Shown here piece after piece: positions 30,487 through 32,087 of a stretch of 37,112 nt of DNA. Positions within the stretch are counted from its first letter, which is position 1; each line of letters opens with the position of its first letter. The notes under the pieces are model-generated. The model did not search any database. It had not been told where the DNA came from and saw only the letters and a list, made by a program, of their open reading frames with translations. The translations under genes and the position numbers were made by a program. Origin of the DNA: Patescibacteria group bacterium (lineage in GTDB: Bacteria; Patescibacteriota; Microgenomatia; JAADGY01); contig JAJRVN010000035.1 in NCBI GenBank assembly GCA_024277325.1, positions 1-37,112 of the forward strand, in the 5' to 3' direction.

Positions 30487-30813
30487 ATGGTTAATAGTTA
30501 CTTAAAGTATGGGTTTATAATTTTGGGAGTTGTGATTGCTTTTGGCATAATTTACTTAACGGTTATTAATGTCCGTCGAGTTCAAGATCGCCAAGCTTTA
30601 GCCACTAAATTAAGCTGTCAGTATAATTGGTGCAAAGCTCAAATCAACAAAAATGGCAATTTATTTACAATCGAGATCAAATCACCTTTTGTTAAAAAAT
30701 ACACAGCGGTCAGCTTTAATACAAACCTTAACCAACATGTCCACAAAAATGTCCAAGTCAAGGGCGTGGTAAAAAATAAAACTTTCTACGTCGTTGACCT
30801 CAAAGATCTTTAA
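30487..30813 (+). CDS. Small N-terminally anchored hypothetical protein
   Basis: 108 aa with N-terminal TM helix; TTGACA (30450-30455)-N17-TTTACT upstream. Confidence 0.6.
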   Translation: MVNSYLKYGFIILGVVIAFGIIYLTVINVRRVQDRQALATKLSCQYNWCKAQINKNGNLFTIEIKSPFVKKYTAVSFNTNLNQHVHKNVQVKGVVKNKTFYVVDLKDL

Positions 30814-32087
30814 GAAACGGTTATAACCTCTATTTTACCAACCTGGCTGGGATGACCGGCTTTTTCAAAATTAAGGTAATTGTGGCTTAAACCGTAAAGG
30901 TGTCCTTGGCGGTGTGATTCCCACAAAATCTCAAGTTTGCGGCCAACGAAGGCTTGGCGCCAGTATTGATTCAGGCGCCGGCCGAGATCTCTTAATTTTT
31001 TAGCTCGAAGCTTGATGATTTCTGTGGCTACCGGTTTAAGTTTTAACTTATTCGCTGCCGCCATCGGTCTAGCAGAGTAGGGAAAGACATGGAGCCGACT
31101 GAACTTAACCTTCTCAACAAATTAGACTGTGTCATTAAAGTCTGATTCGGTTTCGCCGGGGAAGCCAACGACTATATCGGTTGAGATGAGAATGTCGGGC
31201 ACCGCCGACCTCAAGCGGGAGATGGTTTGCCGGAACTGTTCTCGGCTGTAACCGCGGTTCATAAGCTTTAATATCTTGTCACTTCCTGATTGAAGACTGA
31301 TATGAAGATGGGGCATAAGCCGTGGGTTATTACGAAACAGATCTATGAATGAGGGAGTGAAAGAAACCGGATTGATTGAGCCAAATCGAATTCTGGAAAC
31401 AACCGTTTTGTCTAAAATAGTCTTGGTTAAATCTTCCAAGCCTTGACTTGAGACTTGGTACCAATTATTTTGCCGGCCGTTGCCGTCTTGGCCGTAAGCG
31501 CTGATATCAACTCCGGTTAAAACCACTTCCTTAACTCCGTCTTTTTCTGCGCGCTTAATCTCGGCTACGACTTGTTGAATCGATTTTGAGGCAGGTTCTG
31601 GTCTGGTATATGGAATGATGCAGTAAGTGCAGTATCGGCGGCAGCCATCTTGTATTTTTATAAACCGCCTGACCCGAGAAATTAACTGTGCGCTATTGAC
31701 CTTGTGGTTGCTTGGCTTTGGTTTTGATAAGGTTTGACCCGGCTTGATTTTAAGAAATTGTAGTGGATGTTGATCTTTGTTGTCGTTGCCATAAATGTAA
31801 TCAATCCCCCAACTTCGCCAGTCAACCGCCTTATCTTTCAGCCAACGTTGGGCCCCACAGCCCCAAGCGACAACAACTGCTTGGGGATAAAGCTTTTTTA
31901 ACCTTCTTAATCTTTGCCGGCTTTCCTTTTCCGCTTTAGCGGTGACGGCGCAGGTGTTGACGATGATCACTTGAGGCTGGTTTTTATCATAGAGGCAGCC
32001 GGCTTGGTTAAAGACGGACTCCAGCGAAGTTAGCTCGGCTTGATTTAATCGGCAACCCAAATTGACAGTCATATATTTAAATGTCAT
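30810..32087 (-). pseudogene. mtaB: MtaB/MiaB-family tRNA methylthiotransferase, interrupted by an in-frame TAA at 31122-31124
   Basis: N part: VNLGCRLNQAELTSL, KIQDGCRRYCTYCIIPYTRP (radical SAM CxxxCxxC), LISTDIVVGFPGETESDFNDTV*; same frame continues FVEKVKFSRLHVFPYSARPMAAANKLKLKPVATEIIKLRAKKLRDLGRRLNQYWRQAFVGRKLEIL. Confidence 0.9.

Follow-up and report, generated by a model that had tools for sequence, protein, structure and literature searches.

The draft genome of a Patescibacteria group bacterium (824 kb in 70 contigs, 94% complete) carries at least seven internal UAA or UAG codons, one of them in its mtaB gene, which are probably wrong consensus letters or minor variants rather than part of a working cell's genome. 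Two of these codons lie in the stretch under study (the window, 37,112 nucleotides of contig C21). The original prediction had been derived from this window: it described an mtaB-like gene broken by a single TAA and treated a second nonsense event nearby as suspicious. Both stops are present, in mtaB and in a gene for an ATP-dependent DNA ligase (Table 1), and the suspicion has been borne out, although the events are not a local pair: codons of this kind number at least seven and are spread over five contigs, and the single-copy dnaE gene alone has two.

Table 1. Location of the interrupted genes, their internal stops and other features of the draft genome
Feature	Contig	Position	Strand	Description
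mtaB, read through	C21	30810-32087	-	
mtaB, 5' part	C21	31125-32087	-	321 codons; TIGR01579 positions 2-311, E 3e-85; MTTase N-terminal and radical-SAM domains (PF00919, PF04055)
mtaB, internal TAA	C21	31122-31124	-	Glu in 3/3 same-family relatives (G001, G002, G003)
mtaB, 3' part	C21	30810-31121	-	103 codons and natural TAA (30810-30812); TIGR01579 positions 314-411, E 2.7e-14
DNA ligase, 5' part	C21	27291-28019	+	243 codons; PF04675, E 6e-34
DNA ligase, internal TAG	C21	28020-28022	+	Glu in 3/3 same-family relatives (G001-G003) and in 23/29 relatives
DNA ligase, 3' part	C21	28023-29093	+	EPKYDG active-site motif and terminator; PF01068, PF04679
dnaE	C6	8440-11946	-	Two TAG in catalytic region
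dnaE, internal TAG x2	C6	9661-9663, 10174-10176	-	Codon 761: Glu in 20/28 relatives; codon 590: Gln in G001 and in G003, Glu in G002
rpoD	C20	2863-3996	-	
rpoD, internal TAA	C20	3781-3783	-	Glu in 2/2
aspS	C10	3241-4608 within the piece from 20001	-	
aspS, internal TAA	C10	24564-24566	-	Glu in 2/2
Mechanosensitive-channel gene	C55	2950-3660	+	
Channel gene, internal TAG	C55	3334-3336	+	Ser in G003
Fic/DOC match (weak)	C21	26132-27298	+	
7TM_transglut/RimK-like pair	C21	32222-34426	+	
tRNA-Ile (UAU)	C21	5706-5780	-	
16S rRNA gene	C16	3077-4761		

The interrupted genes of the window

On sequence grounds the interrupted gene is mtaB. Its two halves, as read directly on either side of the TAA, are consecutive matches on one TIGR01579 model, and the downstream segment is thus homologous to MtaB, as the original prediction had it. 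With the TAA read through, the protein scores 358.8 bits against a TIGR01579 cut-off of 357.05, a value exceeded only by the read-through form (the 321-residue product alone scores 287). The features shared with MtaB (YqeV of B. subtilis, the tRNA t6A37 C2-methylthiotransferase) include, besides this full-length match, the cysteine motifs (C12, C46 and C77 in the N-terminal part, and CRRYCTYC as the radical-SAM CxxxCxxC) and the synteny with an intact orthologue in the same-family genome G002, where the order mtaB - orf108 - 7TM protein - RimK-like protein - mnmA is the same. The orthologues are uninterrupted in all three same-family genomes (G001, G002, G003; 45-54% identity), and a search of named genomes returned solely distant relatives (∼32-38% identical). 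What sets the present gene apart from MtaB is the stop after codon 321 and the lack of a Pfam match to the TRAM domain on the 103-residue 3' part, while the TIGR01579 match itself reaches position 411 of 416. A MiaB-like gene, distinct from mtaB and intact, is found on contig C69, adjoining a miaA-like gene.

The motif of the YSPRPGTPAA type that had been described as shortened is in fact of equal length in the closest relative (YSARPMAAANK here, YSERPGIVAEK there). The truncated product was also predicted to be inactive. In any cells where the stop is genuine, the 321-residue protein would indeed probably be inactive, because it would lack both the end of the region that aligns with the MiaB structure (the lost part aligns through residue 407) and the RNA-binding C-terminus. 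On the other hand, it is doubtful that living cells have the truncated form only, given the absence of downstream decay and the essential genes affected (see below).

The ligase gene presents a similar picture: with its TAG read through, the product scores 368 bits on TIGR00574 against a cut-off of 217.8. Directly upstream of it lies a gene with a weak Fic/DOC match. On the other side of mtaB, a gene for a 7TM_transglut (RloB-like) protein is followed by one for a RimK-like ATP-grasp protein with a retropepsin-like tail; this pair is well conserved (71-77% identical in G001-G003).

Internal stops across the genome and the implied base change

The genome-wide survey covered 500 of the 824 kb, with 79,945 codons aligned to the proteins of relatives, and used the three same-family genomes as controls. 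Six of the 13 candidates in the draft and all 15 in the controls were dropped on inspection by eye, since the alignment extended upstream of the start or crossed gaps. Seven internal UAR codons remained (in mtaB, the ligase gene, dnaE twice, rpoD, aspS and the mechanosensitive-channel gene), whereas G001-G003, with 139,542 codons covered, yielded none (Fisher p 8.5e-4). No frameshifts were seen among the covered codons. Five of the stops stand at glutamate in all same-family relatives seen; the other two (dnaE codon 590 and the channel gene) are ambiguous. The only replicative polymerase gene found is the single-copy dnaE with its two stops, and rpoD and aspS are without a second full copy in the genome.

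Both stops of the window had been interpreted as compatible with C-to-T changes, that is, with the loss of a glutamine codon. The glutamate found in the relatives at both sites instead indicates a change of the G:C>T:A class, and on this ground C-to-T deamination is rejected for the mtaB codon. When weighted by the frequency of the relatives' glutamate opposite each possible original residue, the posterior for glutamate was 0.957 in mtaB and 0.967 in the ligase (0.031 and 0.022, respectively, for glutamine). At this genome's codon usage, G:C>T:A accounts for 20% of the single-base routes that lead to a stop, and all seven stops fit it (p ∼1e-5 if substitution rates are taken as equal). Glutamate occurs in the closest relative seen at six of the seven, against 48% expected under G:C>T:A (p 0.05); these statistics rest on the residues of relatives, with the assignments for dnaE codon 590 and the channel gene uncertain. 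A G:C>T:A rate of ∼1e-3 per G:C site (7 / (79,945 x 0.084)) would explain the seven stops. Such a rate should also produce missense changes, for which three underpowered comparisons gave no clear result.

The sequences downstream of the stops were compared with those of G002 in mtaB, the ligase gene and dnaE, and no accelerated divergence was seen in any of them. The private changes in the draft and in G002 number 9 and 13, 38 and 36, and 31 and 32, respectively, values on a par that show no decay of the 3' halves. In mtaB, the changes touch just two of the most conserved columns. The breaks therefore arose very recently, or they are unfixed, spurious or suppressed.

Origin of the stops

The stops, at least seven single-base changes that each stand alone, all fit G:C>T:A and are scattered over a metagenome-assembled genome, most likely come from damage to the template or library (8-oxoguanine read as T), from consensus errors at thin coverage, or from minor variants that entered the consensus. 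G>T artefacts caused by oxidation have been documented (PMC12390751). The assembly itself resembles the output of a de Bruijn graph at k=141, with strains mixed to some degree: many contigs share terminal overlaps of exactly 141 bases, and contigs C3 (10358-10687) and C7 (1-330) have a 330-base overlap with two C/T mismatches. We infer that the letters are wrong or unfixed, with oxidised guanine as the cause. Three observations speak against an artefact: the rate calculated above is high for a consensus, the lack of frameshifts would require errors that are substitutions only, and the share of stops at glutamate is somewhat above the expected one.

Ranking next is the possibility that the stops are real, as nonsense mutations of the G:C>T:A class that arose very recently in a lineage lacking MutY, with mtaB and the ligase gene as fresh pseudogenes or the stops polymorphic in the population. 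No gene of the HhH-GPD family (MutY/Nth; PF00730) was detected in the draft, in which MutM is present, and the absence of downstream decay fits recency. There is also a precedent in the mutY-disrupted Wisconsin outbreak strain of Elizabethkingia anophelis, where the G:C>T:A type accounted for 45 of 49 nonsense mutations, with GAA>TAA and GAG>TAG among the dominant changes (PMC5458099), and in B. subtilis no phenotype has been reported on loss of mtaB (PMC5372745). The present case differs from that of Elizabethkingia in that essential single-copy genes are affected, and in that G001-G003, which likewise have MutM and no detectable HhH-GPD gene, are free of such stops. (In other members of the class an HhH-GPD gene is often present.) Moreover, a single-copy dnaE with two TAG codons, together with rpoD and aspS lacking second copies, would hardly leave a viable cell if all these stops were fixed and not suppressed. 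It is mainly dnaE that leads us to favour artefact or minor variants, and we consider recent mutation possible but doubtful. If the mutations were real, they would represent natural 8-oxoguanine-driven decay in a small-genome lineage devoid of MutY.

A distant third is a reading in which UAA and UAG are translated as glutamate at some sites while ending most genes, so that all seven proteins would be full length. In its favour, five stops stand at conserved glutamates and a sixth at the glutamate of G002, essential genes are among those affected, and the constraint on the protein persists past the stops. Furthermore, Blastocrithidia, a eukaryote with cognate tRNAs, has UAR at glutamate positions and still terminates genes with it, UAA having a dual meaning (PMC12153298). 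Unlike in that organism, a cognate tRNA is lacking here: among 49 tRNAs, all with ordinary anticodons, none had UUA, CUA or UCA in the 94% of the genome recovered (a suppressor may still lie in the missing 6%), and both tRNA-Glu have a normal 5-bp anticodon stem. In addition, both RF-1 family genes (RF1 and RF2) are intact, and UAA and UAG close 82% of the 251 genes with homologous ends (149 TAA, 57 TAG and 45 TGA), with tandem stops after UAR no commoner than in relatives. Finally, the seven UAR codons stand against ∼3,000 glutamate codons in the surveyed stretch (∼0.2% of glutamate sites), and the channel stop falls at a serine of G003. The tRNA, release-factor and terminator evidence thus excludes a code change as the main reading, and dual decoding of this kind is improbable. 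Still more improbable is its specific form, in which standard release factors coexist with the reading of a few UAA and UAG codons as glutamate, in essential genes and with no cognate tRNA detected. We know of no bacterial case of UAR read as glutamate, and the present one, if true, would be the first. The UGA=Gly code of Gracilibacteria and Absconditabacteria, likewise small-genome bacteria of the candidate phyla, is of another kind, as the codons affected here are UAA and UAG, and TGA terminates genes normally.

We consider it hardly credible that mtaB has long been a pseudogene, or that it is a split gene whose short form is functional. A single substitution between two open halves would allow this reading; it disagrees with the one open frame of the relatives, with the near-intact set of most conserved columns, and with a 3' half that has not evolved faster than that of G002.

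Consensus errors or minor variants thus remain our preferred explanation. The single-copy dnaE and the ordinary stop-codon system, taken with the lack of a detected suppressor or of decay, suggest that a working cell probably makes a normal full-length MtaB, predicted to methylthiolate t6A37 of ANN-decoding tRNAs. Should the stops prove artefactual, the apparent pseudogenes of this genome would not be evidence of gene loss, and in-frame UAR codons at glutamate sites of draft genomes could mimic a change of code.

Two RNA genes deserve a brief comment. In the 530-loop of the 16S rRNA, C526A was considered as a further error and discarded, being compensated by G505U; this 16S exceeds the Rfam model by ∼150 nt and probably holds an insertion. 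The window also encodes a tRNA-Ile with the anticodon UAU, which is unusual in bacteria, where AUA is mostly read by a modified CAU tRNA.
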